The notes below the pieces were generated by a model. The model did not search any database. It saw only the letters and a list, made by a program, of their open reading frames with translations, and had not been told where the DNA came from. This document shows, in pieces, positions 3,271 through 57,418 of a stretch of DNA of 64,000 nt (position 1 is its first letter; each line of letters starts with the position of its first letter). The DNA comes from Antrihabitans stalagmiti (GTDB lineage Bacteria; Actinomycetota; Actinomycetes; Mycobacteriales; Mycobacteriaceae): contig NZ_JAEMNV010000004.1 in NCBI RefSeq assembly GCF_016482825.1, forward strand, positions 62,001 through 126,000, written 5' to 3'. A program made the translations under genes and the position numbers.

Positions 3271-3341
3271 GGCGCTCCGCGCCTCGTGAGTCTTTTCGGC
3301 GGTTCCGCCCTCCGAAAGGACTCACAAGCCGCGGAGCGGCC
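3271..3341. repeat. Intergenic palindromic repeat, copy 1 of 5
   Basis: A 71-bp element in the divergent gap between the hydratase and the small secreted protein. The left arm CTCGTGAGTCTTTTCGG (3283-3299) pairs with CCGAAAGGACTCACAAG (3312-3328). One difference would be a T-G wobble in RNA and one is a mismatch. It is flanked by GC-rich GGCGCTCCGCGCC and GCGGAGCGGCC edges, which pair with each other in part. The same unit recurs near 14.9, 16.6, 45.3 and 57.4 kb. Confidence 0.9.
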
Positions 3342-3357
3342 TTATATCGTTTTGAGC

Positions 3358-3786
3358 ATGTTGCGGGCACTTGTTTCTGCGGTCATTTCCGTCGTCACCG
3401 TCATCGTCATCGGATGCGCAGCGGTCCTCCTTGCTCAACCTGCCGCGGCTGCACCCGATACCGGTTCGTCGGGTTCGGGCTCGGCAGGTCCGGGTCCCGA
3501 GACACCCGTGCCGGACGACGGCTATCGATTCACCCTCACGATCGATTCCCGCGAGACAGCGTTCGAACTCGAGAATCCGCGAAACCACCTGGTCACCGTG
3601 CTGCCCGGCTTCGTTCCGGGTACCTACCGAATCGACACGACGACGGTCGAGCAGGACAACGACTTTCGTCTGGCGAACAGGCTGGATCGGGCAATCGACG
3701 TAAAAGTCACGCGTAGGGGAGCTCTGCTGGAGAGCATCCGGGCCGAAGCCGATGCCGTCTGGTACTGGAAGGTGCCGCCGAACTAA
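3358..3786 (+). CDS. Small secreted protein, function unknown
   Basis: The 142-residue product begins MLRALVSAVISVVTVIVI and runs into AVLLAQPAAAAPD, a clear signal peptide with an AxA-type cleavage site around residue 35. A Gly/Ser/Pro-rich linker follows, then a domain of about 90 residues containing a NHLVTVLPGFVPGTYRID segment. I do not recognise the family. The ATG at 3358 is preferred over upstream in-frame codons because those lie inside the palindromic repeat and would add a polar leader before the signal peptide. The gene stands alone between the repeat and the MFS gene. Confidence 0.65.
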   Translation: MLRALVSAVISVVTVIVIGCAAVLLAQPAAAAPDTGSSGSGSAGPGPETPVPDDGYRFTLTIDSRETAFELENPRNHLVTVLPGFVPGTYRIDTTTVEQDNDFRLANRLDRAIDVKVTRRGALLESIRAEADAVWYWKVPPN

Positions 3787-3919
3787 TGCCTTGACGGCTC
3801 GGTCGGTTCGTTGCCAGAGTGGACGCATGCGATTCTTCAGCGGCGACACTTGACCCAGTTCCAATAGCTCGCTTGCCGTTCGCGCGATCGCGTATTCCGG
3901 TGTCGGTGAACTGATCCCG

Positions 3920-5107
3920 TTGTACGCGCTCTACGCGCTGCTCTTCGCCGACCATGGTCTGGACACAGCGGAGATCTCGTCGCTGCTGTTCATCTGGTCG
4001 GTCACCGCGTTCGTTTTCGAGGTGCCGTCGGGTGCTTGGGCGGACACGGTCTCCCGTCGCGGACTGCTCGTACTTGGCGCGCTGGTAACCGCGTCGGGCT
4101 TCGCAGTCTGGACCGTCTTTCCCTCGTATGCGGGCTTTGCGCTCGGCTTCGTGCTGTGGGGTATCGGCGGCTCACTGCAGTCGGGAACTTTCCAGGCGCT
4201 GCTGTACGACGAGTTGGCCGCACGCTCGGCGACACGGGAGTATCCGCGCATCATCGGGTTCGCGAACTCCGCGGCCGAAACGGGGGCCCTGCTGGGAATC
4301 CTTGCTGCAGCACCGCTGTTCGCTTGGGGTGGCTACGGGTTGGTCGGCGCGTCGAGCGTCGCCGTCGCTTTGTGCGCCGCACTTTTGGCCGCCTCGTTGC
4401 CAAGTGCGCCGAAGGCAGCATCCGTTGCCGCCGTCGCCGAAATCGACGACGACGAAGACGAACCGGATGTCGCCACCGACGCCCCGAGCAGCACCTACCT
4501 CACCATGCTGCGCAGTGGTGTCACGGAAGCGCTGCGGCACAAAACCGTTCGCCGCGGCGTGCTGCTGTCGTCGTTGCTGTTCGGGTTCACGGCAATCGAC
4601 GAGTACTTCGGCCTGCTTGCCGAAGACAATGGCGCCGCAACAGGTTTCATTCCGATATTGATCGGCCTGACCGTCGCGGGTTCGCTCGTCGGCTCCGCGC
4701 TGGCCGGTCGAACGGCGTCGATGAAGGCGTCGACGATGGCTCGCGGTGTCGTCGTTGCCGGCATCGCGCTGGCAGGTGGTGCCCTGATCGGCGGACCCGG
4801 GATCCTCGGCGTAATCGGGTTCGCCGCAATCGGAGTCGGCTACGGCATCATCACCAACGCGACCATCGTCAGCGAAGCCCGCTTGCAGGACGCGATCGAG
4901 GGACCCGCCCGCGCGACTGTGACGTCGGCATCGAGTTTGATGGCAGAGGTGGTCAGTCTGGCGATCTTCGCCGCCGTCGCGCTCGGGTCGGTGTGGCTGT
5001 CGACGCCGGTATTGGTCGCACTGCTCGGGATACCGGTGGTCCTCGCGGCCGCCCTTGTGCCGAAGTGGCTACCGCGCCAGTCACATGGCCCTACAGTGAC
5101 CGGGTGA
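3920..5107 (+). CDS. MFS transporter with an in-frame stop near its natural start
   Basis: The 395 residues from the TTG at 3920 show a major facilitator fold: SSLLFIWSVTAFVFEVPSGA followed by WADTVSRRGLLVLG is the loop 2-3 signature, and about eleven hydrophobic segments follow with an acidic central loop (EIDDDEDEPDVA). Reading upstream in the same frame gives NSLAVRAIAYSGVGELIP, clearly the first half of membrane helix 1, back to a TGA at 3851. Eight codons before that TGA is an ATG at 3827 (MRFFSGDT). The natural gene probably ran from 3827 and is broken by one base (a GGA to TGA change would explain it), or a weak TTG is used. Substrate unknown. Confidence 0.7.
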   Translation: MYALYALLFADHGLDTAEISSLLFIWSVTAFVFEVPSGAWADTVSRRGLLVLGALVTASGFAVWTVFPSYAGFALGFVLWGIGGSLQSGTFQALLYDELAARSATREYPRIIGFANSAAETGALLGILAAAPLFAWGGYGLVGASSVAVALCAALLAASLPSAPKAASVAAVAEIDDDEDEPDVATDAPSSTYLTMLRSGVTEALRHKTVRRGVLLSSLLFGFTAIDEYFGLLAEDNGAATGFIPILIGLTVAGSLVGSALAGRTASMKASTMARGVVVAGIALAGGALIGGPGILGVIGFAAIGVGYGIITNATIVSEARLQDAIEGPARATVTSASSLMAEVVSLAIFAAVALGSVWLSTPVLVALLGIPVVLAAALVPKWLPRQSHGPTVTG

Positions 5108-6009
5108 TCGAACGGCATCGACGCGGCCCGCTGGTGATCGCGTCGGTTGCCGTTGTGGCGGGACTCGTTCTGGCCGGATTGTTGCTTCTCGCGCGGATGG
5201 TCGGCGATTCCGAAGGGGGGTCGCAGTACGTGATGTCCGGCGCGGCGTCGAGTACGACGAAACCCGTTGCCAGCACGGTTGCACCGAGTTCGTCGGCCGC
5301 GGCCACGTCACTACGCCCGAATTCGGTCGTCGGAATAGGCAACAATTCGCTCACCTCGGCCGTGTCACTGCGCAAGCAGGCATGTGTACTACCTCCGTGG
5401 GCCGAGGACGATGCCACCGTCCGCACGTTCCTCGACGTAGCGATGGGCTGCCTCAATTCCACCTGGCAACCAGTTCTCGCGCGGCTGTCGATCCCGTTCA
5501 CCGCTCCCGAGTTGAAGGTGTCGGCGACAGTCGCGTCGTTGGGCTGCGGTCGCCCGCCCGAGGAGAACAGCTTCTACTGCGACGGAACGATCTATCTGGC
5601 GCCGTCGAGCTATCAGGGCACAAATGCGGGTAGGAATGCGATTCCGACAGCGGCGATCAGCATGCTCGCCCACGAATACGGTCATCACCTGCAGCAATTG
5701 AGCGGCACGTTGGGCGCAGCGACCGAGATGATCACGCTGTTGGGCAGGGAGACGCCCGACGGACTCGAGGTGTCACGACGGACCGAACTGCAGGCGCAGT
5801 GCCTGTCGGGGATCTTCGTTGGAACCAACTTCGACATCGCAAGCATTCAGGTAGCTCAGCGCGACAACTACACCCGTGGCGATGCGCCGGGCAGGCCTGC
5901 CGACCACGGTTCGCCGAGGAACTTCGGTGAGTGGTTCACGAAGGGTGCGGGTCGGACGTCGCTGGATTCGTGCAACACCTGGTCGGCCGCGTCGGCAACC
6001 GTTCGCTGA
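5104..6009 (+). CDS. Membrane-anchored neutral zinc metallopeptidase
   Basis: The 301-residue protein has one N-terminal membrane segment (about residues 10-29), a Ser/Thr/Ala-rich linker, and a domain of the putative neutral zinc metallopeptidase family (YpfJ-like). The zinc motif HEYGH is present in SMLAHEYGHHLQQLSG near residue 185, and the later RTELQAQCLSGIF segment supplies the expected downstream acidic ligand. The catalytic domain should face outside the membrane. The GTG at 5104 overlaps the MFS stop codon, so the two genes are probably co-translated. The frame is open far upstream but that sequence lies inside the MFS gene. The substrate is unknown. Confidence 0.85.
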   Translation: MIERHRRGPLVIASVAVVAGLVLAGLLLLARMVGDSEGGSQYVMSGAASSTTKPVASTVAPSSSAAATSLRPNSVVGIGNNSLTSAVSLRKQACVLPPWAEDDATVRTFLDVAMGCLNSTWQPVLARLSIPFTAPELKVSATVASLGCGRPPEENSFYCDGTIYLAPSSYQGTNAGRNAIPTAAISMLAHEYGHHLQQLSGTLGAATEMITLLGRETPDGLEVSRRTELQAQCLSGIFVGTNFDIASIQVAQRDNYTRGDAPGRPADHGSPRNFGEWFTKGAGRTSLDSCNTWSAASATVR

Positions 6010-6102
6010 CTTTTGCCGATTCGCCAAGATTCCGTGCGGCAGAACAGTAGCGTCGGCAACGATCGGCTGTTCGGTACATGTTGACAATGGAGGGGTCCAG
6101 TC

Positions 6103-6510
6103 TTGAAACGCCTGATTATTGCTGCCGTTAGTTGCGCCGCGCTGTTACTCGTCGGTGCTTGTGGATCCGATGACGGTGATCCGAAACCGTCCGATACGTC
6201 CAGCACTACCAAATCGGCAACGACGACAACAAGCGCGACCAGTACGAGTGCGACGACGCCGGCGGTTGTACCGCCGCCAGCAGCGCCCGTCGAACCAGGT
6301 AACCCGAGGCCTGCACCGCTGAATCCTGCTCCGGCGCCGCTCAATCCGGCTCCTGCGCCGTTGACGCCTGCGCCTGCACCGCTGACACCGGCGCCCGCGC
6401 CTCTGACGCCGGCACCTACGACGACACTCGCACCGGTCGTACCGACGACAACGGCCCCCGCTGTGATCACAACGACGCCGGCGGTGCCCGAGGACCCCGA
6501 GGGCGGCTAA
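6103..6510 (+). CDS. Proline-rich repeat lipoprotein
   Basis: A 135-residue lipoprotein beginning MKRLIIAAVSCAALLLVGAC, where LVGAC is the lipobox and Cys20 the lipidation site. The mature part is low complexity: a Thr/Ser-rich stretch, then tandem PAPLNPAPAPLTPAP units, then Thr/Pro and an acidic EDPEGG end. It has no catalytic domain and probably extends through the wall as a spacer. The TTG start at 6103 is chosen because GGAGGGG lies 8 bases upstream and it places the signal sequence correctly. Repeat number could vary between strains. Confidence 0.75.
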   Translation: MKRLIIAAVSCAALLLVGACGSDDGDPKPSDTSSTTKSATTTTSATSTSATTPAVVPPPAAPVEPGNPRPAPLNPAPAPLNPAPAPLTPAPAPLTPAPAPLTPAPTTTLAPVVPTTTAPAVITTTPAVPEDPEGG

Positions 6511-6562
6511 CCCCTCGTCGGCCCTGTCGGGCGAGTCCACTACGGATGGCACTATTGGCCAA

Positions 6563-7486
6563 GTGAATTCGCAACGCTTCGGTGTTGTCGTCGCGATTCT
6601 GGTCGGTGTATCGATCGCCGGTCAGTCGCGTCTCAACGGCGCCCTCGGAGCGCGTTTGGACGATGGCGTCGCAGCCGCGGTGATCAGCTTCGGCAGTGGG
6701 TTCGTGCTGTTGTGCATCGGTTTGGCTTTCAGCAAACGGATGCAGAACCGGCTGGCCGAGGTGCGCACTGCGGTGCGGACGAAAACCCTTGCGCCATGGC
6801 AGTGCATCGGCGGCGTGTGCGGTGCTTTTTACGTTGCGTGCCAAGGTATTACGATCTCGACGATCGGTGTCGCCGTATTCACCGTCGCCGTTGTCGGTGG
6901 CCAGTTGCTGAGCAGTCTGTTGGTCGACCGCGCGGGACTCGGTCCTGCCGAATCGAGTCCGCTCACCGGCAATCGTGTGCTCGGTGCCGCGCTGGCCTTG
7001 ATTGCTGTCGCCGTCGCAAGTTCAGGTCGGATCGACGCCGACGCAAGCGCGTTGCTGTTCGCTGTCCTGCCTGCGATCGCGGGTATCGGTCTCGCCTGGC
7101 AGCAGGCAGTGAACGGTCGCGTCGCCGCTGTCGGCGGTCCGATGGTTGCGACGTGGATCAATTTCGCAACGGGCACGACAGCGCTGGTGATCGTCGCGGC
7201 GATCGGGCTGACGGTCCGGGGCTGGCCGTCGACGCCGCCGACGGACTGGTGGCTCTATGTCGGCGGAACGCTCGGCATCGCGCACATCGCTGCCGCGGCG
7301 GTGCTGGTGCGAACGCTCGGCGTGCTGCTGCTCGGCCTCAGCGTCATCGCCGGTCAACTTCTCGGCGCCTTGCTACTCGACGCGATCGTCCCTGCGAGTG
7401 GTGCGACCCTGACCGTGACGGTGGTGGTCGGCGGGGTGCTGACGCTCGTCGCCGTGTGGATTGCGGCAGGCAGAAGCAAAACGTAG
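6563..7486 (+). CDS. DMT-superfamily transporter (YdcZ/DUF606-type)
   Basis: A 307-residue integral membrane protein with about ten hydrophobic segments and an internal duplication. Each half begins with a similar pattern: SIAGQSRLNGALGARLDDGV near residue 13 and LAWQQAVNGRVAAVGGPMVA near 173. This two-fold repeat with Q-x-x-x-N-G is typical of the DUF606/YdcZ group of drug/metabolite transporters. The substrate is not known. The GTG at 6563 is the start. It is in the same direction as the OmdA-like gene 47 bp later. Confidence 0.8.
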   Translation: MNSQRFGVVVAILVGVSIAGQSRLNGALGARLDDGVAAAVISFGSGFVLLCIGLAFSKRMQNRLAEVRTAVRTKTLAPWQCIGGVCGAFYVACQGITISTIGVAVFTVAVVGGQLLSSLLVDRAGLGPAESSPLTGNRVLGAALALIAVAVASSGRIDADASALLFAVLPAIAGIGLAWQQAVNGRVAAVGGPMVATWINFATGTTALVIVAAIGLTVRGWPSTPPTDWWLYVGGTLGIAHIAAAAVLVRTLGVLLLGLSVIAGQLLGALLLDAIVPASGATLTVTVVVGGVLTLVAVWIAAGRSKT

Positions 7487-7533
7487 GCCCGAGTCGTCAC
7501 GGCCCGGCCTTCCATTGGACTACTCTGCTGTCG

Positions 7534-7983
7534 GTGGAGGAGTTCGAGGCGCAGATCAAGTCGACAGAGTCCGGCGGCGGCGGAGCCTACGTGGCAGTTC
7601 CGGCGGCCGTGGTCGATGCACTCGGTGGAGGCGGACGAATTCCGGTCGAAGCGACGTTCGACGGCATTCCGTACAAAGGTTCGGTCGTCGACATGGGTGC
7701 CGGCCCGTGCCTCGGCATTCTCAAGTCGATACGCAACGAACTCAGCAAACATCCAGGCGATTCGGTGCTCGTCACCGTCGAGCGGGACAACGCCGAACGG
7801 ACGGTCGACGTCCCCGACGATCTCGCAGCAGCGCTCGCCGAAGCTGGTGTGCGGGAGGCGTTCGACAAGCTTGCCTTCTCGCTTCGCCGCGAGCACGTGA
7901 CCGCGATAACCGACGCCAAACGGCCGGAGACACGGTCACGCCGCGTCGCGAACACCGTGCACGCGGTGCTCAACCGGGCCTGA
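7534..7983 (+). CDS. DUF1905/YdeI (OmdA-like) domain protein
   Basis: A 149-residue soluble protein. Residues about 1-90 match the pattern of the DUF1905 beta-barrel (GAYVAVPAAVVDALGGGGRI then VEATFDGIPYKGSVV). The C-terminal 55 residues (VPDDLAAALAEAGVREAFDK then SLRREHVTAI and AKRPETRSRRVA) match the bacteriocin-protection/YdeI helical domain. Function is poorly known for this family. The GTG at 7534 is chosen; the frame is open upstream but overlaps the transporter gene. It ends 13 bp before the convergent Rieske gene. Confidence 0.8.
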   Translation: MEEFEAQIKSTESGGGGAYVAVPAAVVDALGGGGRIPVEATFDGIPYKGSVVDMGAGPCLGILKSIRNELSKHPGDSVLVTVERDNAERTVDVPDDLAAALAEAGVREAFDKLAFSLRREHVTAITDAKRPETRSRRVANTVHAVLNRA

Positions 7984-7996
7984 CCGATCCGCCTGA

Positions 7997-11281: not shown

Positions 11282-12037
11282 ATGGCCCGCGAGTTGGTCT
11301 ACGACGCGCTGAACATCGTGGGGCGGTCGATGCTGAAGCTGCAGGGTGTGCGGCTGCGCATCAACGGTCAGGACAACATTCCTGCCGTCGGTGGTGCCGT
11401 GCTCGCCGTCAATCACACGGCCTATCTCGATTTCATCGAGATCGGGCTCGTCGGCCGCAACCGTGGCCGCAACGTCCGCTACATGATGAAGGCTGAGCTG
11501 CAGAACAATCGCTTCGTCGCATTTTTGATGAAGCACTGCAAGGCAATTCCGGTCGATCGAGCTGCGGGTGCCGAAGCCTACGAGCATGCCGTGACGGCAT
11601 TGCGCGACGGCGAACTGGTCGTCGTCTATCCGGAGGCGACCATCAGTCGCAGCTTCGAACTGAAGGACTTCAAATCCGGCGCGGCGCGGATGGCCCTGGA
11701 AGCGGACAAGCCGATTGTTCCGATCGCGATCTGGGGTGCGCACCGGATCTGGACCAAAGGGTTCCCCAAAAAGCTTGGCCGACACAACTTTCCGATTCAT
11801 ATCGAGATCGGTGAGCCGATAGCGCCGCGCGAAGAGATCGACGCACTGACCGGAGAGTTGCGTGCGGCGATGAAAGACTTGCTCGACAAGGCTCAGGCTG
11901 GCTACCCAGCGCCGGCGGGGGAGCCGTGGGTGCCCGCGCGTCTCGGAGGTGGGGCTCCCGATCTCGATGCGGCCGCCGAATTGGAAGAGGCGGAGCTTGC
12001 CGAACGACGCGCAAAGGCTGAGCGGCGGGATAAGTGA
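11282..12037 (+). CDS. 1-acyl-glycerol-3-phosphate acyltransferase family protein (second of a pair)
   Basis: A 251-residue paralogue of the preceding gene, with the HX4D motif in AVNHTAYLDF and the same VYPEATISRSFELKDFKSGA block. Identity to its neighbour is visibly high through the core, so the pair arose by tandem duplication. Differences concentrate in the N-terminal 25 residues and in the loop after the first motif (EIGLVGRNRGRN), which may tune acceptor choice. ATG 11282 is the start. It is the last gene of the plus-strand pair; a strong hairpin follows. Confidence 0.9.
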   Translation: MARELVYDALNIVGRSMLKLQGVRLRINGQDNIPAVGGAVLAVNHTAYLDFIEIGLVGRNRGRNVRYMMKAELQNNRFVAFLMKHCKAIPVDRAAGAEAYEHAVTALRDGELVVVYPEATISRSFELKDFKSGAARMALEADKPIVPIAIWGAHRIWTKGFPKKLGRHNFPIHIEIGEPIAPREEIDALTGELRAAMKDLLDKAQAGYPAPAGEPWVPARLGGGAPDLDAAAELEEAELAERRAKAERRDK

Positions 12038-12054
12038 ACTGCGCAACGCCTAGC

Positions 12055-12100
12055 CGCACTTCGCAACGCCCCCAACAGTTTCGAGGCGTTGCGAAGTGCG
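12055..12100. terminator. Perfect 16-bp inverted repeat between convergent genes
   Basis: CGCACTTCGCAACGCC (12055-12070) pairs exactly with GGCGTTGCGAAGTGCG (12085-12100) around a 14-base loop. It lies between the acyltransferase stop at 12037 and the hydroxylase stop at 12127, so it can end transcription from both sides. There is no T-run, as is usual in GC-rich actinomycetes. Extra partial copies of GCAACGCC and GCGTTGCG flank it. Confidence 0.7.
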
Positions 12101-12126
12101 AACCAGCGTTGCGTAGTCGACCCGAA

Positions 12127-12792
12127 CTACCGCGCGGCGTGCAGGTTCTTGGCCGTCGGCGAGGTCTGCACATCTTCGGAGTGCGGGAAGGTTCCGAGCA
12201 CACGATCGGCTGTACCTGAGGTCGTGACCGTGAACCAGTAGTGCTCGTTCTTGTAGTGATGCAACCGATGGTCACGCCAGATCGCCTTGTAGACGCGGGA
12301 TTTCGGCTTGTAGTCGCTGTGGATGAGGTAGTGGCTCCACTCGTAGACGATGCCGAGCATCGCGATGAACACAAGGTAGGTCAGCCCGAGTCCGAGGCGC
12401 GGGAAGGCGAGCAACGCGATCGCGAGCGTCGCAGGCAGCACCCAGAGCAACGCCTGCCACGGGATGAAGATGAGCGGTACATCGCGCGGATCGGTGTGGT
12501 GTTCACGGTGTTTGCGGGCTAGCAGCGGATCGATCGTCAGCCCGGCGACCTTACGGGGACGCCAATGCAGGATCAGCACGTGGATGATCCACTCGAAAAA
12601 CGGGAACAGTGCCAGCATCACGACCGGAACGATCGCGTCGGTGATCTGCCAGTCGCCGACGATGATGCGCGCGACTATCGCCACTGCGAGGGTGGCCGAG
12701 ATCATCCATGGCGATGGGTGTTTCCAAAATTCGCGTCCCGCGTCAGCAAGCGTGAAGTTCTTGCGAATGCGGCGGGGTGTCGAAGTGCTCAT
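12127..12792 (-). CDS. Fatty acid hydroxylase superfamily membrane protein
   Basis: A 221-residue integral membrane protein with four hydrophobic segments and the histidine clusters of the di-iron fatty-acid hydroxylase/sterol desaturase group: HVLILH near residue 71, KHREHHTDP near 94, HYLIH near 154 and [14 protein letters not shown] near 174. Members hydroxylate or desaturate lipid chains using two irons and oxygen; the lipid substrate is unknown here. Its ATG overlaps the stop of the upstream GntR gene (ATGA-type overlap), so regulator and enzyme form one transcript. This pairing suggests control by a fatty acid or acyl-CoA. Confidence 0.85.
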
Positions 12793-14867: not shown

Positions 14868-14902
14868 GGCCTACCCGTTCGAGCTCCCGTCGAACCGGCC
14901 GG

Positions 14903-14973
14903 GGCGCTCCGCGCCTCGTGAGTCTTTTCGGCGGGCCCGACCACCGAAAAGACTCACGAGCGGCGAAGCCGCC
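14903..14973. repeat. Intergenic palindromic repeat, copy 2 of 5
   Basis: The cleanest copy: CTCGTGAGTCTTTTCGG (14915-14931) and CCGAAAAGACTCACGAG (14944-14960) are perfectly complementary over 17 bp, with a 12-base loop and GC-rich flanks GGCGCTCCGCGCC / GCGGCGAAGCCGCC. The last codons and TGA stop of the DUF885 gene lie inside the right arm, so the element has become part of that reading frame. Confidence 0.93.
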
Positions 14974-16624
14974 CGACCCGATCAGCGAGAACCGGCAGGC
15001 TGACCGTCGCTGCCCCGAGAACGGCGTCGTGAAAAACCTTGATGTCGAACTGATCGCCAAGCCGAGCCTCTGCTTCCGCACGTAGCCGAAGGATCTCCCG
15101 CTGCCCGACCTTGTAGGCGAGCGCTTGTCCCGGCATCCCGATGTAGCGGTCGATCTCGGTGACGATCTCGTCGTAGCCGACCGGCGCGTGTTCGACCATG
15201 AAGTCGATCGCCTGCTGGCGGCTCCATCCCATCGCATGCAGACCGGTGTCGACGACGAGTCGGCACGCCCGCCACGAGTCGCTCGCGAGCATGCCGAGGC
15301 GATCGAGGTCGTTGCGGTACAGACCCATTTCCTCGGCGAGCCGTTCCGTGTACAGCGCCCACCCTTCGACGTAGGCGGTGTGCCCCCACGACAGTCGACG
15401 GAAGGCAGGCAGGTCGTCTCGCTCGGCGGCGATGGCGAGCTGCAGATGGTGTCCGGGGATCGCTTCGTGGAACGCGATCGACGCCGTCTCTGCGCGGCCT
15501 TTGGTGGTGGGTTCACCCACGTTGACGTGATATTCGCCGGGACGGCTGCCGTCGGGAGCGGGCGGGGTGTAGTAGGCGGCAGGGGCATCGGCAGCCAGGT
15601 AGTCGGGGATCGGCCGCAACACGCATGGCGCCTTCGGGACAATGCCGAACCAGTCGCCCATCGCTGCCTGCGCGGCTTCGAGGCAACTCGTCGCGTTGGC
15701 GAGAATTTCGTCGCGGTCGCGATACCGGAGGTCTTCGTCGTCGAGCAGATGTCGGAAGATCTCGGCGAGGTCGTCGGTGCCGAATTGCCGCTTACCCAGT
15801 TCGCGATACTGCGCGGGCAGGACGTCGAAGACCTCACGGCGACCGATCTCGTGCAGGTCCTCCGCGGTCAGGTCGAGCCCGGTGTGTAGCGCTATTAGTG
15901 CTCGATACATGCCAGGACCGTCGGCCAACCACTGCAGGCCGGCCTGCTCGTCCGGCCTGGCCGCGGGCAGTAGCCGCTCGGCAAGGACGGCGCGGTAGCG
16001 AACGAATGCCGGCCGCAGGTGCTGCTCGACAGCAACCTTCAGGTCCGCACGCCATTCAGGTTCGCCGTCCCAGTCGGCCGGTCCGCTTATGTTGACGAAC
16101 GGGTCGTCGTCGATGGGTGAGGCGAGGTAGCCGTCGATCTGATTCAGCGAACGGTCGACGTTGATCCGCGCGGGTGTCCGGCCTGCGGCAAGGCCGGCGA
16201 CAAAGCGTTCGCCCGCCTGATCGAGCATGCCGCCGAGCCGCTCGACGCGAGTCACCGCGAGCGCGGCGTGGGCGGGTTCGGCCGCCTGCAACTGTCCCGC
16301 GGTGATCAACAGATCGGCGTGCACGCCCTGCATCTGATCGGAGCGCAGTTCGATCAGTCGTTCGTCGATCGCGATGATGTTGTCGCGAAGTTCGCCGAGC
16401 AGCAGGCTGCGGGTGACCAGATCGGTCTCGTCCAGTTCGGTCGGATCGATCGCCGCGACGGCAGTGATGAGCTTCGACCAGGTCTCGCGTTGCTCGGCGT
16501 CGCCTTCGACGGAAAGGTCGTCGACCTGATCGTCGTAGCGGTGATCGCCGATGAACGTCGCGAACAGCGGACGGAACTTCAGCAAGGCTTCCCAGTACTC
16601 GTCGGCCAATGAGCGCAGTGTCAT
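14954..16624 (-). CDS. DUF885 family putative metallo-carboxypeptidase
   Basis: A 556-residue soluble protein of the DUF885 family, which is related to M32-type metallopeptidases. The zinc motif is AFHEAIPGHHLQLAI near residue 390, followed by SWGHTAYVEGWALYTERLAE with the third ligand near residue 420. It probably removes residues from peptides in the cytoplasm; the substrate is unknown. ATG 16624 gives a normal N-terminus (MTLRSLADEYWEALLKFRP). The C-terminal residues RLRRS are encoded in palindromic repeat copy 2, and copy 3 lies just upstream of the start, so this gene is bracketed by two copies. It lies downstream of the peptide-transport genes, which fits peptide use. Confidence 0.85.
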   Translation of the reverse strand: MTLRSLADEYWEALLKFRPLFATFIGDHRYDDQVDDLSVEGDAEQRETWSKLITAVAAIDPTELDETDLVTRSLLLGELRDNIIAIDERLIELRSDQMQGVHADLLITAGQLQAAEPAHAALAVTRVERLGGMLDQAGERFVAGLAAGRTPARINVDRSLNQIDGYLASPIDDDPFVNISGPADWDGEPEWRADLKVAVEQHLRPAFVRYRAVLAERLLPAARPDEQAGLQWLADGPGMYRALIALHTGLDLTAEDLHEIGRREVFDVLPAQYRELGKRQFGTDDLAEIFRHLLDDEDLRYRDRDEILANATSCLEAAQAAMGDWFGIVPKAPCVLRPIPDYLAADAPAAYYTPPAPDGSRPGEYHVNVGEPTTKGRAETASIAFHEAIPGHHLQLAIAAERDDLPAFRRLSWGHTAYVEGWALYTERLAEEMGLYRNDLDRLGMLASDSWRACRLVVDTGLHAMGWSRQQAIDFMVEHAPVGYDEIVTEIDRYIGMPGQALAYKVGQREILRLRAEAEARLGDQFDIKVFHDAVLGAATVSLPVLADRVGRLRRS

Positions 16625-16635
16625 TTACCCATCAT

Positions 16636-16706
16636 GGCGCTCCGCGCCTCGTGAGTCCTTTCGGAGGTCGGGCGCGCCGAAAAGACGCACGAGCGGCGGA
16701 GCCGCC
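16636..16706. repeat. Intergenic palindromic repeat, copy 3 of 5
   Basis: A 71-bp copy between the membrane protein gene (stop ends at 16706) and the DUF885 start at 16624. Left arm CTCGTGAGTCCTTTCGG faces right arm CCGAAAAGACGCACGAG with two mismatches, and the flanks GGCGCTCCGCGCC / GCGGCGGAGCCGCC are kept. It sits 11 bp upstream of a start codon in the middle of a same-strand run. Confidence 0.9.
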
Positions 16707-17359
16707 TAGCTCGGATCCGAGCCGCGAATTGCGCTGGCCCAGATGGCAACTGCCGCGCCGACGCAGGTTGCGCCCACGAAGGCCGGTATCCCGCCACCGA
16801 CGAGGTAAACCCAGAACAAGCCTACGAACGGACCGACGACAGCGGACTGGGCGTCGAGGAGCAGCCGTCGAAGTGGGCGGGCGGCAACCGCTCCGCGCTC
16901 AGCTGCGTCGGCGTCCGGCGCGAGTGGATTGTCGATCAGGCGACCCGGCGGCTCGGCCGAAAGCGCGCGGCCGCTCACCATAAAGACGTGTCCGTTCCAG
17001 CCGATCGTCGTGGTGCTGACCTCGGCTGTCACCGGCGACGGCAAAGTCACTAGTGCGGGATCGAAAAAGACCGGCAGCCAGGTCTTTCCGTCGATTTCCA
17101 GCCACGAGCGCGAGGTCAGGCGATGCTGCTGGCGGACCCGCCGTACCGATGCCGCAGTTCCAAGGGGCACCCGCCGAGCCGATCGATACCAGACTCGCAA
17201 CGTCCAGCCCGCAACCCCGACCACGACGATGGCGAGCGCGCTCACCTGATCGAGGGCGTTGTCGGCAGGCAGCGCGGCGATACAAGCTATCGCAAACGCG
17301 ATACAGACATCGATGGTCAGAGCCGAGATCACTAATGGATACCGCAGTGCGGCAGGCAC
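16706..17359 (-). CDS. Membrane protein of unknown function
   Basis: A 217-residue protein with two hydrophobic segments at the N-terminus (LVISALTIDVCIAFAIACIA, then VSALAIVVVGVAGWTLRVWY) and two near the C-terminus (VVGPFVGLFWVYLVGGGIPA, then FVGATCVGAAVAIWAS). A soluble region of about 100 residues in between carries WLEIDGKTWLPVFFDPALVT. I do not recognise the family. The GTG at 17359 is chosen because it lies 8 bp after the stop of the substrate-binding gene and starts the first helix; the frame is open further upstream inside that gene. It is probably co-transcribed with the peptide-transport genes. Confidence 0.6.
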   Translation of the reverse strand: MPAALRYPLVISALTIDVCIAFAIACIAALPADNALDQVSALAIVVVGVAGWTLRVWYRSARRVPLGTAASVRRVRQQHRLTSRSWLEIDGKTWLPVFFDPALVTLPSPVTAEVSTTTIGWNGHVFMVSGRALSAEPPGRLIDNPLAPDADAAERGAVAARPLRRLLLDAQSAVVGPFVGLFWVYLVGGGIPAFVGATCVGAAVAIWASAIRGSDPS

Positions 17360-24468: not shown

Positions 24469-24481
24469 GCTAGACGCCGAT

Positions 24482-24530
24482 GAATCTTGTGTGCTTCCAC
24501 TCGGATTCCGGGAGTAAAGCCACAGGATTT
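24482..24530. repeat. Convergent-junction repeat, copy A1
   Basis: The 33 bases at 24482-24514 are identical to 27889-27921. Outer arms AATCTTGTG (24483-24491) and CACAGGATT (24521-24529) pair over 9 bp with one T-G wobble, and ACTC/GAGT form an inner stem. It lies between the stop of the HAD gene and the stop of the desaturase gene, so a bidirectional terminator role is plausible. Confidence 0.8.
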
Positions 24531-27879: not shown

Positions 27880-27888
27880 CGGACCCAC

Positions 27889-27937
27889 GAATCTTGTGTG
27901 CTTCCACTCGGATTCCGGGAGCTAACGCACAGGATTC
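27889..27937. repeat. Convergent-junction repeat, copy A2
   Basis: The first 33 bases are identical to copy A1. The outer stem AATCTTGTG (27890-27898) / CACAGGATT (27928-27936) is preserved although the bases between the 33-bp core and the right arm differ. It lies between the AraC stop and the idi stop, again a convergent junction. Confidence 0.8.
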
Positions 27938-28543: not shown

Positions 28544-29875
28544 TTACCGCGCAGGAAGGCACGGTCCGTTGGGTGGCGGTTGGTGGCTGTAGCCCGGGTA
28601 GCAGGGCAAAGGTCCGGACGGGGCGGGTGCCGGTGCCGGCGCAGGGCCTTGTGGTGCCGGTGCGACGCCACCGACCGGCAGGCACGGACCGTCGGGTGCC
28701 GGCTGATGGGTGTAGCCCGGGTAGCACGGGAGTATTTCGGGCGCACCCGGCGCGGGCGCGGGAGGTGGCGGTGGTGGCGGCGCTGGAGCGGGCGCCGGAG
28801 CCGGAGCGGGTGCTGGCGCGGGGGCAGGAGCAGGCGCAGGCGCAGGCGCAGGAGGCGGTGCAACCGTCGCTTCGACTACCGGAGGCGCGGGAACGGTTGT
28901 CGGTGCTGGCGCAGATGTTGTGGTCGATCGAGCCGGCAACGCACTCGACGACGGCAGAATCTGAGTTGTGTCCGTCGTATCTTCGATCGGATCATCGGAC
29001 GTGCCGCCCGCGAAGGCGAAGACCAACCAGGCGAACAGCGCGATGACCAGCAGGGCTGCGCCGGCGATCAGAGCTTTGCGTTTCGTCTCAGGATCGATGC
29101 CGCCACCCGATCGTGCAGTCGTTGTCGGCGAGGCTGCGAGCGGAGCCGCGGCGGCGGGGCGCTGCTCGGTGGTGAGTGCATGCTGCAGAATCTGTCCGAC
29201 GGTGCCGGCGGTGGTGACGCTGCCGTCCATTGCCCGCAGCGCGATCGTGGACATTTCCTGCGGAACTTCGGGCCGAAGTGTGTGCGGAGCTTGCGCGTCG
29301 ACGACACGTTCCGGCCAGATCCCGGTCAGCAGTAGATAGAGCACCGCGCCGAGCCCGACGATGTCGGATCCGGAGTCGTTTCTGCTGGTGGTGGCGGGAA
29401 AAGCGAGTACGGCCGCGCCCTTGGGATCGATGCGGATGCGGCTGGAGTAGTCGAGCGCGACCGCCAAACCGTCCCGATGAGCATGTTCGGCAACTTCGGC
29501 GAGCGGCTTGGTCGCTTTGGCCGCTGCGTCGGGCGCGAGTCCGTCTGCTCCGATGTCGTCCAGCGACGTGCCTGCAGTCCAATCGGCGACGACGATCGTC
29601 TGGTCACCGTCGTCGTGAATGTCGCGAATTCGGGCTATTGCAGGTGAATCGATCCGGTTGAGGCGCATGGTGCGGCCGCGGATGGATTCGAAAGAATCCA
29701 CCGCGCCCGCTACCAGGGTGAGCGCCACATCCAGTTTCTTGGTGGTGTCGTGTGCGCGCCAGAACTGCAGTCCGTCGCCGACGCCGTGCGCTTCGAGCAG
29801 TCGATAGCGCTCGCCGATCGTTACGCCCGGTTCGAGCGGCTCGGGCAGCCGTGCCTCGGGTTGCTGATCGTCCAT
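28544..29875 (-). CDS. Membrane pseudokinase with proline-rich tail and paired cysteine motifs
   Basis: The 443-residue protein has an N-terminal protein-kinase-like domain (about 20-240), a membrane helix (ALIAGAALLVIALFAWLVFA, about 268-287) and an extracellular Thr/Ala/Pro-rich tail with a long PAPAPAP run. The catalytic residues are gone: the VAIK lysine is replaced (VALTLV), the HRD region reads GLAVALDYSSRIRID, and DFG reads AFPA. It therefore resembles the pseudokinase part of mycobacterial MviN (Rv3910). The tail ends with two near-identical motifs, CYPGYTHQPAPDGPC and CYPGYSHQPPPNGPC, each able to form a disulfide loop. A binding or scaffold role is inferred. Confidence 0.8.
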   Translation of the reverse strand: MDDQQPEARLPEPLEPGVTIGERYRLLEAHGVGDGLQFWRAHDTTKKLDVALTLVAGAVDSFESIRGRTMRLNRIDSPAIARIRDIHDDGDQTIVVADWTAGTSLDDIGADGLAPDAAAKATKPLAEVAEHAHRDGLAVALDYSSRIRIDPKGAAVLAFPATTSRNDSGSDIVGLGAVLYLLLTGIWPERVVDAQAPHTLRPEVPQEMSTIALRAMDGSVTTAGTVGQILQHALTTEQRPAAAAPLAASPTTTARSGGGIDPETKRKALIAGAALLVIALFAWLVFAFAGGTSDDPIEDTTDTTQILPSSSALPARSTTTSAPAPTTVPAPPVVEATVAPPPAPAPAPAPAPAPAPAPAPAPAPAPPPPPPPAPAPGAPEILPCYPGYTHQPAPDGPCLPVGGVAPAPQGPAPAPAPAPSGPLPCYPGYSHQPPPNGPCLPAR

Positions 29876-44522: not shown

Positions 44523-48514
<3,992 letters not shown>

Positions 48515-48531
<17 letters not shown>

Positions 48532-51964: not shown

Positions 51965-52076
51965 TGGAACTGTCATCACGGGATTTATCTCCGAGGCGCA
52001 GCGGTTCGGTATCGTTCGCGGTACTTTGAGTCTCGGTTCGATAACGCATGATGTCTTTTCGACGATGTACCTAAAA

Positions 52077-52097: not shown

Positions 52098-52156
52098 AGT
52101 CACTCTGGCACCGGGGGCCACACGGGCTGATGTGAATCTCCCGGCACGAAGAACTT

Positions 52157-52176
52157 CGCGACCTCAGTTGGTCGCG
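52157..52176 (+). promoter_or_regulatory. Leader hairpin before first antigen-85 gene
   Basis: CGCGACC (52157-52163) and GGTCGCG (52170-52176) form a perfect 7-bp stem with a 6-base loop, ending about 20 bp before the antigen-85 ATG and just upstream of its ribosome site. It may stabilise or control this message. The remaining part of the 233-bp gap shows no other clear element. Confidence 0.45.
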
Positions 52177-52197
52177 TGAATTGAAAGGGCGAAGTAG

Positions 52198-53271: not shown

Positions 53272-53292
53272 TACCGACCCGGTAAGCGATTA

Positions 53293-53328
53293 CGAAACCG
53301 GCCCTGCCACTCGGCAGGGCCGGTTTCG
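53293..53328 (+). terminator. Strong hairpin terminator after first antigen-85 gene
   Basis: CGAAACCGGCCCTGCC (53293-53308) and GGCAGGGCCGGTTTCG (53313-53328) are perfectly complementary over 16 bp with an ACTC loop, followed by TTG. It lies 21 bp after the stop codon, so the first antigen-85 gene is likely its own unit. Confidence 0.88.
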
Positions 53329-53606
53329 TTGTGTCCGGCCACCTCAGGTCATGGTTATCAAGTCGTGACCGAAAGTGGTTGTCGCAACACGGGAAGGACA
53401 AGCTAGGGTCACCAACCAATAACGGACAAATGCGTCTGGATCGCCGGGGGCTCGGTTGCCTCGGCGGGCAATGTCGAATATTGTCACCGAGCGAGTGTGA
53501 CCGGAACGTTATTGCACTACCCGCCTGCGTAATGGCGGTCGTGTCCGTTTGAAGTTGGTAGAGCCGCCCTGGCGGACACCGCAGTAGCAGAAAGAGAGCT
53601 CTATTC
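53329..53606 (+). promoter_or_regulatory. Upstream region of second antigen-85 gene with several dyads
   Basis: Between the terminator and the ATG at 53607 there is no gene. GTCAC/GTGAC (53484-53488 approx. and 53497-53501) form a short dyad, and GTGTCCG (53541-53547) and CGGACAC (53573-53579) form a 7-bp inverted repeat that ends 27 bp before the start codon. The region should hold the promoter; which dyad is functional is not shown. Confidence 0.4.
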
Positions 53607-54632
53607 ATGCGTCTTGGCAACGCGACGTCGTCCGGAAGTCGGGGCGTTTCCCGCAGTTGGAAACAGCGGGTCCTCGGCCTGACTGCCGCAGCGCTCGTGC
53701 TGCCGGTGTCGGCCGGTATCGCCGGTGGCGTCGCCACCGCGTCGCCGATCCATGGCGCACCGGTTCTCAGCGCGCCCTCGGGCGGCTTCGAAGAACTGAT
53801 CGTCCCGTCGGGCATGGGCCCGATCAAGGTGCAGGTCCAGTGGGCCGCCCGCGGCGGCAACGCGGCGCTCTACCTGCTCGACGGACTCCGCGCTCGCAAC
53901 GACCGCAACGCCTGGTCGTTCGAGACGAACGCACTGCAGCAGTTCGCGGGCGACAACGTCACCCTCGTCATGCCCGTCGGTGGCCAGTCGAGCTTCTACA
54001 GCGACTGGTACGCGCCCAGCAACTTCAACGGGCAGAAGACGACCTACAAGTGGGAGACGTTCCTCACCAAGGAACTTCCCGCATTCCTCGCCAACTACGG
54101 CGTCTCGCCGACCAACAACGCGATCGCCGGCCTTTCGATGGGTGGCAGTGCAGCGCTGACCCTCGCCGCGTACCACCGCGATCAGTTCAAGGCGGCTGCC
54201 GCGTACTCCGGCTACCTGAACATCTCGGCACCGGGTATGCGTGAAGCGATTCGCATCGCGATGCTCGACGCAGGTCGTTTCAACGTCGACTCCATGTGGG
54301 GTCCGCCGTGGAGCCCGAACTGGCTGCGTAACGACCCGTTCGTTTTCGCACCGAAGCTCAAGGGCCTCCCGCTCTACATCTCCGCTGCAAGCGGTCTCCC
54401 GGGTCCCTACGACCGTCCGACATCCGCGCTCGGCGTCTACAACACGGCCAACGGCATGGCGCTCGAAGCGCTCGCACTCGTGAACACCCGCGCCTTCCAG
54501 ATCCGTCTCGCGACGCTCGGTGTCCCGGCCCGCTTCGAATTCCCTGCTGCTGGCACGCACTCATGGAAGTACTGGGAAGCGGAGCTGTTCAAGTCCCGCG
54601 ACATGTTCCTGGACGTTCTCAACGCACGCTGA
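53607..54632 (+). CDS. Antigen 85 family mycolyltransferase (second of three)
   Basis: A 341-residue secreted mycolyltransferase. The signal peptide ends near GGVATASPIHG (about residue 46). Ser177 lies in AGLSMGGSAALTLAAYH, and MWGPPWSPNWLRNDPFVFAP and AGTHSWKYWEAEL complete the antigen-85 pattern. It lacks the Ser/Gly insertion of the first paralogue and is the compact form. ATG 53607 follows AAAGAGAGC. Its own terminator follows, so it is probably a separate transcript. Substrate overlap with its neighbours is expected. Confidence 0.96.
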   Translation: MRLGNATSSGSRGVSRSWKQRVLGLTAAALVLPVSAGIAGGVATASPIHGAPVLSAPSGGFEELIVPSGMGPIKVQVQWAARGGNAALYLLDGLRARNDRNAWSFETNALQQFAGDNVTLVMPVGGQSSFYSDWYAPSNFNGQKTTYKWETFLTKELPAFLANYGVSPTNNAIAGLSMGGSAALTLAAYHRDQFKAAAAYSGYLNISAPGMREAIRIAMLDAGRFNVDSMWGPPWSPNWLRNDPFVFAPKLKGLPLYISAASGLPGPYDRPTSALGVYNTANGMALEALALVNTRAFQIRLATLGVPARFEFPAAGTHSWKYWEAELFKSRDMFLDVLNAR

Positions 54633-54656
54633 CCGAAACGGTCGAACCGAACGCCG

Positions 54657-54695
54657 AACCGCCCCGCGCAATCTCGACGATTGCGCGGGGCGGTT
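54657..54695 (+). terminator. Strong hairpin terminator after second antigen-85 gene
   Basis: AACCGCCCCGCGCAAT (54657-54672) and ATTGCGCGGGGCGGTT (54680-54695) pair perfectly over 16 bp around CTCGACG, followed by GTTTG. It lies 24 bp after the stop and also ahead of the convergent secreted-protein gene. Confidence 0.88.
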
Positions 54696-54711
54696 GTTTG
54701 TGTCGGGGGTG

Positions 54712-55278
54712 TCAGCTCACGACGAAGGCAAGCAACAGTGGCGAGATTGCTGGATCACGCCACCAGGAAAGCCCGAACCAGACACCGGGTGAGACTTCCC
54801 GAATCTCGTCGAGGAGTGGCGGCGTCGGTGAGGGTGCGTAGTTCAGTATCCAGGCCGGTTCGTTATCCACCTTCGAGGTTCCGAGGTAGACGTCTGCGAC
54901 CCAGCCTTCGATGCCGGCACCGGTGATGCGGTTCTGCAGGTGCCCGCCGTTGCTTCCGGTGTAGAACGTCTTGCCGATCCACAGTGGCGGTGCCATTGCG
55001 GCCATGATTGCCGGCCGAGTGACCCAACCACTCGTTACGCCGCGGGGTGTGGAACCGGCGGCAGCGGACACGTAGATCTCGTCCTGCTGCTCGACGCTGC
55101 ATTTGAACCGCAGTGCGTCGATGGTGGCAGCGCGGTCGTCGGGATACACCGCACAGCCGTTGCCGTAGTCGGTCGGTTCCGCGCTCGCATTGCCGACCGC
55201 TGTGAACGGGGCAAGCGCCACAACGGTTCCGAGCGCAAACGCAAGACTTCGAAATCGGTATCTTGGCTGTTTGGTCAT
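54712..55278 (-). CDS. Secreted protein of unknown function between antigen-85 genes
   Basis: From the ATG at 55278 the 188-residue product has a signal peptide (FRSLAFALGTVVALAPFTAV, then GNASAEP, cleavage near residue 33). The mature part has two cysteines (GNGCAVYP, RFKCSVEQQD). Its C-terminal half reads PPLWIGKTFYTGSNGGHLQN, then NEPAWILNYAPSP and LDEIREVSPGVWFGLSWW, a beta-rich pattern that loosely recalls GXWXG/DUF4334-type folds. I do not assign a family. It is the only minus-strand gene in the envelope cluster. Further in-frame codons exist upstream to 55368 but would bury the signal peptide. Confidence 0.6.
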   Translation of the reverse strand: MTKQPRYRFRSLAFALGTVVALAPFTAVGNASAEPTDYGNGCAVYPDDRAATIDALRFKCSVEQQDEIYVSAAAGSTPRGVTSGWVTRPAIMAAMAPPLWIGKTFYTGSNGGHLQNRITGAGIEGWVADVYLGTSKVDNEPAWILNYAPSPTPPLLDEIREVSPGVWFGLSWWRDPAISPLLLAFVVS

Positions 55279-55493
55279 GTCCTTCGTATCGTTACCGAGA
55301 CGAACTTTGTCACTACCTATTACGCTCGATGTGGTCCGAGCCACAGTTTCATGCACCAATTGCAACATCCGTCACATTGGAAACTACCCGTCCCCTGCGC
55401 GTCGTCCCCGGAATGGCCTCTTTCGGCGTGTAGAACAGAGCTTGCATGCGGGTGCCGAAGGGTGCCCATTGGACGGAAAGTGAGGCCACGCCG

Positions 55494-57350
55494 ATGCGAC
55501 GCGCACCCGGTTTACGCTCTCGAGCCTTTGGGATGTGTGCGGCGGTGCTCGTTTTGCCGCTCGCCGCCGGACTCACCTCCGCGACGGCGTCGGCGACGCC
55601 ACTCGCTCCCGCATACGAAGCCCCGCCGCTTGCGAAAGCACCTGGCGCTGCCGCGATCACCAACGTCACGTGGTTCACGGATCGTCGCGTTTCGCTCTGG
55701 GTCGAATCTCCGTCGATGGCAGCTCCGGTCCAAGTGCAACTGCTGCTGGCCCGTGATTGGAACGCCCGCCCCGAGTCGAAGTTCCCCGCGCTGTTCATGC
55801 TCGACGGCCTCCGCGCGCAGGACGGCGAGAACGGCTGGACGCTCGACGCGAAAGCCGAGACCTTCTTCGCCGACAAGAACGTCAACGTCGTACTTCCGAT
55901 CGGTGGCCAGTCCAGCTTCTACTCCGACTGGCTCGAACCGGACAACGGCAAGAACTACCAGTGGGAGACGTTCCTGACGAAGGAACTCCCACCGCTGCTC
56001 GAAAGCCAGTGGCGCACAACCAATGTCCGCGGTGTGCAGGGCTTGTCGATGGGCGGCACATCTGCGATGTTCCTCGCAGCGCGCAACCCCGACTTCGTGA
56101 AGTACGCGGCGTCCTACTCCGGCTTCCTGACGACCACCTCGCTCGGCATGCCGCAGGCGATTCAATACGCGATGAACGACGCGGGTGGCTTCAACTCCGG
56201 AGCGATGTGGGGTCCGCCGAACAGCGCGGACTGGACCGGCCACGATCCCTACATGCTCGCCGACAAGCTCAAAGGCATCAGCCTCTACGTCTCGAGCGGC
56301 AGCGGCATGACCGGACCGTTCGACCAGCCGTCGGGAATCCCAGGAGTCAGTACCAACTTCGCGGGTATGGGCCTGGAAATTCTGGCACGCCTCACGTCAC
56401 AGAACTTCGCCACGAAGCTCAATCAGCTCGGTATTCCGGCGCAGGTCAACTACCGACCGTCGGGCACGCACTCCTGGCCGTACTGGGATTTCGAGATGCG
56501 GCAGTCGTGGCCGCAGGCGGCGAGCGCACTCGGCGTCGAGGTCGACAAGCCTGCCTGCAACCCGGCGGGCGCGATCGCTGGCTTGGCATCGGCCAACAAC
56601 TGGCTCGGTGACTGCCTCACCGGCGAATACAACGTCGCAGGCGGCGTCGCACAGGACTTCCGCTTCGGCCGGATCTTCTACTCGTCGACCGGTGGGACCC
56701 AGGTTGTCGCCGGCCGAATCGGTGGCGACTACGAGGCCAACGGTGGCGCAGGCGGACCGCTGGGGTTGCCGATCAGCGAAGAGCGCGGCGCGCCGGACGG
56801 CCGTGGGCGCTACCAACTCTTCGAGCGCGGCAGCATCTACTTCACCCCGCAGACCGGCGCGCACGCGATCCGCGGATCGATCCTCGACGAATGGTCGAAA
56901 CAGGGTTACGAAGGTGGACCTCTCGGCTACCCGGTGGCCGAAGAGGTGAAGACGCCCAACAAGGACGGCGTCGTCCAGGGCTTCGAAATCGGTGCCATGT
57001 ATTACAGCCCCAACAACGGCACACACCGAGTGCAGGGCATGATCATGGGCAAATACGGCGCCCTCGGTTACGAGGACAGCTGGCTCGGCTTCCCCAAGGG
57101 CAGCGAGCAGTCGGTCAAGGACTTCGGGAAATTCAACGAGTTCGAGGGCGGCAACATCTACTGGAGTCCGTTGTCGGGTGCATGGGCCATCAAGAACGGA
57201 CCCATCTTCGACGCCTGGAAGAGCGTCGGCTACGAGAACGGCAAGCTCGGGTTCCCGACCGGCGATCAGTTCGACATACCTGGCGGAACGCAGCAGAACT
57301 TCCAACTCGGCTACATCACGGTCAAGGACGACAAGGCGGAGATTCACTAG
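55494..57350 (+). CDS. Antigen 85-type mycolyltransferase with LGFP repeats (PS1-like, third of three)
   Basis: A 618-residue secreted protein. The signal peptide ends near TSATASATPLA. An antigen-85 domain (about 50-365) has Ser185 in QGLSMGGTSAMFLA and SGTHSWPYWDF. The C-terminal 230 residues are four LGFP modules, recognised by PLGLPISEE, PLGYPVAEE, WLGFPKGSE and KLGFPTGDQ with the linked GAMYYSPNNGTH-like strands. The layout matches PS1/Cop1 of corynebacteria, where LGFP modules attach to the wall. It should move mycolates while held on arabinogalactan/peptidoglycan. ATG 55494 follows GTGAGG; palindromic repeat copy 5 follows the stop. Confidence 0.93.
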   Translation: MRRAPGLRSRAFGMCAAVLVLPLAAGLTSATASATPLAPAYEAPPLAKAPGAAAITNVTWFTDRRVSLWVESPSMAAPVQVQLLLARDWNARPESKFPALFMLDGLRAQDGENGWTLDAKAETFFADKNVNVVLPIGGQSSFYSDWLEPDNGKNYQWETFLTKELPPLLESQWRTTNVRGVQGLSMGGTSAMFLAARNPDFVKYAASYSGFLTTTSLGMPQAIQYAMNDAGGFNSGAMWGPPNSADWTGHDPYMLADKLKGISLYVSSGSGMTGPFDQPSGIPGVSTNFAGMGLEILARLTSQNFATKLNQLGIPAQVNYRPSGTHSWPYWDFEMRQSWPQAASALGVEVDKPACNPAGAIAGLASANNWLGDCLTGEYNVAGGVAQDFRFGRIFYSSTGGTQVVAGRIGGDYEANGGAGGPLGLPISEERGAPDGRGRYQLFERGSIYFTPQTGAHAIRGSILDEWSKQGYEGGPLGYPVAEEVKTPNKDGVVQGFEIGAMYYSPNNGTHRVQGMIMGKYGALGYEDSWLGFPKGSEQSVKDFGKFNEFEGGNIYWSPLSGAWAIKNGPIFDAWKSVGYENGKLGFPTGDQFDIPGGTQQNFQLGYITVKDDKAEIH

Positions 57351-57352
57351 CA

Positions 57353-57418
57353 GGGCGCTTCGCGCCTCGTGAGTCTCTTCGGAGGGTGGAGCCTCCTGAA
57401 AGACTCACGAGTCTCGAA
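57353..57418. repeat. Intergenic palindromic repeat, copy 5 of 5 (shortened)
   Basis: Only 3 bp after the stop of the LGFP mycolyltransferase. CTCGTGAGTCTCTTCGGAGG pairs with CCTCCTGAAAGACTCACGAG with three changes and a short loop. The left GC-rich flank is kept (GGCGCTTCGCGCC) but the right flank is lost, so it is the most eroded copy. Confidence 0.85.

Follow-up and report, generated by a model that had tools for sequence, protein, structure and literature searches.

A REP-like palindrome family at gene 3' ends in Antrihabitans is the target of an IS481-like insertion sequence

INTRODUCTION

The closest described relatives of the palindromes reported here are the REP, BIME and REPIN families. 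The GTAG and CGTC REPs are described as numerous dispersed palindromes that lie mostly in convergent or co-directional gaps, near coding regions, and that sometimes supply a TAG stop codon; those of the CGTC type have no assigned transposase gene (PMC3733652). Earlier work cited in PMC12306157 reports that REPs affect translation in E. coli when they lie no more than 15 nt from a stop codon, and IS1397, ISKpn1 and other REP-targeting insertion sequences (ISs) insert specifically into host palindromic repeats (PMC1525189). The main text of PMC3733652 does not name Rhodococcus, Nocardia, Mycobacterium, Streptomyces, Frankia or Corynebacterium, and the word IS481 is absent from the main text of PMC1525189. 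In the openly licensed PMC literature, no description of an Antrihabitans palindrome family was found in the titles and abstract starts among the matches listed.

The family studied here was noticed in a 64,000-nt stretch of DNA (the window), which is part of contig C34 of the Antrihabitans stalagmiti genome (G000; 6.39 Mb, 44 contigs). Three other Antrihabitans genomes were compared, namely, A. stalactiti (G001) and two further members of the genus (G002 and G003). Like REPs, BIMEs and REPINs, the Antrihabitans palindromes are dispersed and extragenic, occupy 3'-end gaps and sometimes provide a TAG stop (PMC3733652), but they have the foot CGTGAG rather than GTAG or CGTC, they consist of a single fixed 46-bp palindrome, and no RAYT was found in the hosts. 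Since neither the end tag nor the RAYT of a RAYT-type REP was found, the family was not counted as a REP member, though it works like a REP family. The CGTC REPs, to which it is similar in being dispersed without an assigned transposase gene (PMC3733652), likewise differ in foot and architecture. As with IS1397 and ISKpn1, an IS inserts specifically into the palindromes; however, this IS has an IS481-like transposase and makes a 14-bp duplication, and its relatives do likewise in two other genera. We consider the best explanation, at a probability of roughly 0.55, to be that these 3'-end hairpins of Antrihabitans and some relatives form a REP-like family without a RAYT, that a loop-specific IS exploits them, and that they would act at the mRNA 3' end.

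RESULTS AND DISCUSSION

Five copies in the window

The five copies that had been listed in the original prediction were recovered by a repeat search as the top direct-repeat family of the window (in-register repeats of 74 nt that start at 3269, 14901, 16634, 45297 and 57352). Moreover, the arm pattern with up to 3 mismatches matched 10 times in the window, compared to 0.28 expected in shuffles, and these matches were both arms of the five copies, confirming the claim. The proposed 17-bp arms do repeat; the conserved core was nevertheless corrected to 46 bp, of the form CTCGTGAG..N30..CTCACGAG, flanked left and right by mini-hairpins of about 5 bp.

3269..3342, no strand: copy 1, mini-hairpin, 46-bp core (3283-3328), mini-hairpin
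14901..14974, no strand: copy 2, core 14915-14960
16634..16707, no strand: copy 3, core 16648-16693
45297..45370, no strand: copy 4, core 45311-45356
57352..57425, no strand: copy 5, core 57366-57411, right mini-hairpin lost

The divergent gap that holds copy 1 separates an enoyl-CoA hydratase-like gene (2284-3225, minus strand) from a small predicted gene lacking a Pfam match (3508-3786, plus strand), and the counterpart of this gap in A. stalactiti has no element. The stop codon of the DUF885 gene (14954-16624, minus strand) is the TGA of CTCGTGAG, within the core of copy 2; the end of the A. stalactiti orthologue has an element split by an IS, and that of the G002 orthologue has none (the G003 stretch has no orthologue). 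Copy 3 adjoins the TAG stop (16706-16708) of the gene at 16706-17332 (minus strand), and this gene end is occupied in A. stalactiti and empty in G003 (the G002 stretch has no orthologue). The edge of copy 4 is formed by the TAG stop (45297-45299) of a MerR/TipAS gene (44523-45299, plus strand), with a predicted UDP-galactopyranose mutase-like gene downstream (from 45395, plus strand), and copy 5 starts 1 nt past the TAG stop of an esterase/LGFP gene (55533-57350, plus strand). By our gene finder, copy 1 is thus divergent, and copies 2 to 5 lie directly at the stop of a gene with a same-strand neighbor. The argument that had been built on mixed gaps, that the elements are not simply terminators, is weak, as divergent gaps hold just 6 of the 106 copies classified and the rest are in tandem or convergent gaps. 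No Rfam match above the gathering score was obtained in the window; copy 2 gave 19 sub-threshold matches, mostly to microRNA hairpin models.

Family size and distribution

Genome-wide, the arm was found far more often than in five copies. With up to 3 mismatches, there were 219 matches on one strand of the A. stalagmiti genome and 214 on the other, whereas a reversed-pattern control matched once on each; thus, the prediction of a dispersed REP-like family was borne out. About 215 copies are present in this genome and about 144 in A. stalactiti, and in A. stalagmiti their density is uneven, with 21 copies on the 994-kb contig C1. At up to 2 mismatches, the counts per strand were 205/204 in A. 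stalagmiti, 143/145 in A. stalactiti, 0/0 in G002 and 0/1 in G003; any match was seen in 6 of 61 genomes, three of these being single matches outside the genus.

A generic pattern, CGTGAGTNNTT..N18-22..AANNACTCACG, was found in 23 of 401 genomes of the family and in 4 of 31 genera, with 125 and 137 matches in two Antrihabitans carriers, at most 75 in the others, and no control match in any genome listed. One of the four carrier genera would be Rhodococcus, because a primer used in a paper on Rhodococcus jostii RHA1 (PMC6921075) contains the same foot, as do four Rhodococcus plasmids. Among plasmid records, these four matched the form of another genus, and the window's form had no matches. On three related plasmids, an NRPS gene annotation covers the best match, and in the one viewed it is inside the gene, which counts against a strict 3'-end rule. 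Carriage by phages was rejected: viral contigs gave 0 matches for two patterns, and phage records had no match to the 46-bp form of another genus, the form that was tried.

Anatomy, folding and covariation

For the anatomy of the element, 1,652,293 bases of A. stalagmiti (all of contig C1, the window, and stretches of C12, C2 and C3 chosen around listed good copies) and 715,329 bases of A. stalactiti were read, giving 71 and 37 copies, respectively. The core was exactly 46 bp in 104 of these 108 copies (68/71 and 36/37). It is a palindrome whose foot, CGTGAG/CTCACG, is conserved and whose upper stem is interchangeable; in the window's species, it is flanked by two mini-hairpins. A mini-hairpin with at least 4 of 5 pairs was possible in 117 of 142 A. 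stalagmiti flanks, compared to 38.5% of shuffled flanks, and in 5 of 74 A. stalactiti flanks; similar flanks also adjoin several copies in other genera.

RNA folds of the five window copies on the plus strand had energies of -36 to -58 kcal/mol (z of -3.5 to -8.1), and the two minus-strand folds tried had z values of -9.0 and -8.3. In the minimum-energy folds, the long stem runs on through the flanks, which pair with one another, and the mini-hairpins do not form. Yet pairing of the left with the right flank (0.560 in A. stalagmiti; shuffle mean, 0.605) was not above that of shuffles, and such pairing was discarded as the cause of flank conservation. The mini-hairpins themselves covary within A. 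stalagmiti (paired at 0.78 and 0.75; shuffle maxima, 0.69 and 0.68), and covariation therefore favors the mini-hairpins.

Copy 2 had been described as perfectly paired, which is true of its 17-bp arms and not of its upper stem. The statement that changes in copies 1 and 4 stay paired was selective, in that the T-G wobbles are real but copy 1 also has a C-A mismatch; across the five copies, the departures in the 17-bp arms comprise 3 T-G wobbles, 3 C-A, 1 A-G and 1 C-T. Moreover, core pairing within A. stalagmiti (0.896) equals that in shuffles (0.894), and the argument from wobbles to selection on folding therefore fails. In the A. stalactiti core, one position changes together with its partner (12 cells with changes on both sides, where shuffles gave 6.1 on average and at most 12).

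Paired substitutions are instead seen between genera, where the upper stems differ yet stay paired. An alignment of 21 copies was made from 20 loci plus window copy 2, with 8 of 28 matches omitted (three were not 46 bp, and five were second or repeated copies). Pairing was retained in 93.9% of cells, compared to 74.8% in shuffles; 85 cells were changed on both sides, compared to 28.4; and the covariation score was 0.475, compared to 0.130. No slid register exceeded 42% paired. Only 12 of the 21 pairs are informative in this alignment, because the search pattern fixes the foot positions.

Position at gene ends

Genes were called with our own simple codon-usage gene finder, whose A. stalagmiti codon model was also applied to other genera. 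The 71 A. stalagmiti copies comprised 40 in tandem gaps, 24 in convergent gaps, 5 in divergent gaps, 1 at an edge and 1 inside a predicted gene; the A. stalactiti copies comprised 19 tandem, 17 convergent and 1 divergent. Divergent gaps were thus depleted (5/69 compared to 23.2 expected, and 1/37 compared to 12.4 expected). Of 141 gene-end sides, 134 lay within 31 nt of the stop codon, but uniform sliding within the same gaps already gives 107, so part of this effect is due to the compactness of the gaps. Restricting the count to gaps of 200 or more free bases left 16 sides, 11 of which were near the stop (within 31 nt), where 1.2 were expected. For some genes, the stop is the TGA inside the core (distance, -7). 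The same position was found at 22 loci in 21 genomes of other genera (14 convergent, 6 tandem and 2 divergent), where all 34 gene-end sides were within 20 nt of the stop.

Stops next to elements were TAG in 54 of 84 cases in A. stalagmiti, compared to 28% elsewhere, and in 12 of 51 cases in A. stalactiti, compared to 29%. The idea that the elements are edged by a TA duplication was dropped because A. stalactiti lacks the TAG enrichment; its flank frequencies also have no TAG edge signal.

The depletion in divergent gaps, the many convergent gaps that the element fills with both stops adjoining it, and the strong hairpins on both strands where these were tried would suit bidirectional terminators kept by selection, in which case the palindromes would be immobile and their likeness would come from gene conversion. 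However, flank frequencies show no T-rich stretch after the core, such as the T run of an intrinsic terminator, and in 31 of 59 tandem copies the next predicted start is at most 60 nt away. On account of these tandem copies in particular, a pure terminator was rated less likely, and we regard this explanation as unlikely.

A family of REP-like 3'-end hairpins accommodates the position at stop codons as follows. Transcribed from either side, the element would fold into a very stable hairpin just past the stop codon. The hairpin may act at the mRNA 3' end by blocking 3'-to-5' decay, by aiding RNA polymerase release or by slowing the terminating ribosome, and the stop codon would then be a tolerated and sometimes useful site. 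Copies would spread via some copying event, probably on a folded strand or cruciform, and one palindrome family may take the place of another at a given 3' end. The palindrome tip, in turn, could be recognized by the IS transposase as a safe site.

Turnover and replacement by other palindromes

Among 253 reciprocal best gene pairs between A. stalagmiti and A. stalactiti, an element was present in the former in 16, in the latter in 19, and in both in 3. The three shared sites include window copy 3, and window copy 2, which is IS-split in A. stalactiti, makes a fourth. Protein ends were mostly of the same length in pairs above 60% identity. In two convergent gene pairs, the genes overlap by 4 nt in A. 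stalactiti and are separated by an element in A. stalagmiti. Since most of the orthologous sites compared are unshared and these two overlapping pairs are parted, copies are gained or lost, which is a further point against terminators held in place. The comparison of occupied and empty sites, made here between species, thus showed most compared sites to be species specific, but orthologous sites are too diverged for a duplication around the whole element to be read at the junctions, and the case for insertion events is therefore the orthologue comparison.

Another palindrome family was present at the A. stalactiti orthologue of 5 of 16 genes occupied in A. stalagmiti, compared to 7 of 237 others (P value = 0.0003). 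These are 5 genes at 4 sites, and the scan was noisy, with 211 matches in A. stalactiti against 175 in the control; the reverse comparison gave 0 of 19 genes occupied in A. stalactiti. The presence of other palindromes at some of these 3' ends in A. stalactiti would also be expected of terminators. A second family, with a GTGCGCGA foot and a length of 40 bp, matched 26 times per strand in A. stalactiti (e.g., C1:69460-69499 and C1:194213-194252) and 0 times in A. stalagmiti, and several of its copies lie at gene 3' ends. Any match to the GTGCGCGA foot was found in 17 of 61 genomes; G023 has similar 40-bp stems, and many other matches are not palindrome-like.

Search for a mobilizing enzyme

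A REP-associated tyrosine transposase had been suggested as an agent acting in trans. No Y1 transposase (RAYT, PF01797) was found in any of the four Antrihabitans genomes, nor was one found in 15 of the 23 genomes with the generic palindrome, most of which are drafts; carriers without it include G295 (75 copies), G261 (38) and G289 (14). The elements might nonetheless be REPINs or BIMEs mobilized by a RAYT that was lost from, or lies outside, the assemblies. In their 3'-end position, the TAG edge that gives stops and the inverted, paired mini-hairpins, they resemble GTAG REPs (PMC3733652), and a Y1 transposase is present in 8 of the 23 generic-palindrome genomes. However, only 46 of the 142 A. 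stalagmiti flanks have TAG at -15 to -13, with a preceding G (GTAG) in 18. Together with the lack of Y1 in the hosts, this disfavors RAYT mobilization, which we consider improbable. With no mobilizer found, this REP-like system allows the question of what copies the palindromes to be asked where the usual answer seems to be absent.

An IS481-like insertion sequence in the loop

Lone half-palindromes led to contig ends that have a common sequence. In 2.45 Mb of scanned segments, three lone arms (up to 1 mismatch in 14) were found, each adjoining an IS end at a contig end. Across A. stalagmiti and A. stalactiti, there are 14 IS ends of type A and 15 of type B, and none in G002 or G003. All 29 lie in a palindrome at one identical loop position, with a 14-bp duplication. 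In A. stalagmiti, each of 6 A ends has exactly one B end with a complementary 14-bp duplication, leaving two B ends without an A partner; in A. stalactiti, pairing is ambiguous for most ends because the loop sequences repeat. One A end of A. stalactiti is internal to a contig, and the other 28 ends coincide with contig ends, among them the start of the contig to which the window belongs. The starts of C34 and C4 of A. stalagmiti (L190 and L228) have matching 14-bp duplications, so that these contigs meet across one IS copy, and five other pairs of contig ends are joined likewise. Insertion of the IS thus explains some of the breaks in the two draft assemblies, in neither of which was the full IS body found.

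The IS481 family is characterized by TG..CA ends and a target duplication, and this IS has both. The last 96 residues of the IS protein have relatives in G025; the A. stalagmiti fragment itself matched no transposase model. The G025 relative has rve domains and scored 200.9 bits with the IS481 model NF033577, below the cutoff of 224 but best of the four models listed. Eight of ten loci with IS relatives were examined, L294 and L296 being left out because they are the G025 C14 copy already covered. Two copies in G025 and one in G292 lie in those genomes' own palindromes with 14-bp duplications. In G340, four copies (L293, L295, L297 and L298; 38% identity) lie in an unrelated palindrome with 15-bp duplications. 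The G214 relative has a 14-bp duplication and no palindrome, and that in G062 has no convincing duplication; the generic palindrome pattern had no match in G214, G062 or G340. Scoring up to 4 candidates per genome detected an IS relative in only 2 of the 21 palindrome carriers outside Antrihabitans.

Because the TG..CA ends of the IS are inside the loop and the duplication is within the palindrome, the palindrome is a target and not a terminus; the IS481-like element acts on the palindromes as a guest that uses the loop as its target. This bears on the possibility that the palindromes derive, as MITEs, from a DNA transposon, which might be the IS481-like element. They are palindromic, short and dispersed, and the IS is physically associated with them, but the placement of its ends and duplication speaks against such an origin, as do the three lone arms, which are IS-split halves, and duplications around whole elements are not readable. 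We consider a MITE origin highly improbable.

The IS481-like group uses different stems in three genera (A. stalagmiti and A. stalactiti, G025, and G292), and in a fourth genus (G340) the palindrome is unrelated. A bolder formulation, which we offer tentatively, is that palindromes with the CGTGAG foot copy themselves as mobile elements to stop codons without a RAYT-type enzyme in at least four genera and that a clade of IS481-like elements reads the tips of palindromes or cruciforms rather than one sequence. Since the target loop sequence changes between genera while the geometry is fixed, the IS provides a clean test of structure-guided target choice. The G340 copies, for their part, hint at a palindrome-seeking clade of transposases.

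Other repeats in the window

Three further sets of repeats were noticed in the window. Imperfect palindromes at 24477-24529 and 27884-27936 are 89% identical, and each lies in a predicted convergent gap; they appear to be a low-copy 3'-end repeat. An inverted repeat with 38-nt arms at 12038-12117 fills the convergent gap between predicted genes at 11282-12037 (plus strand) and 12127-12705 (minus strand). Short direct repeats, with a 21-bp period and of the GGCGCAGGC type, are present at 6288-6423 and 28773-28912.
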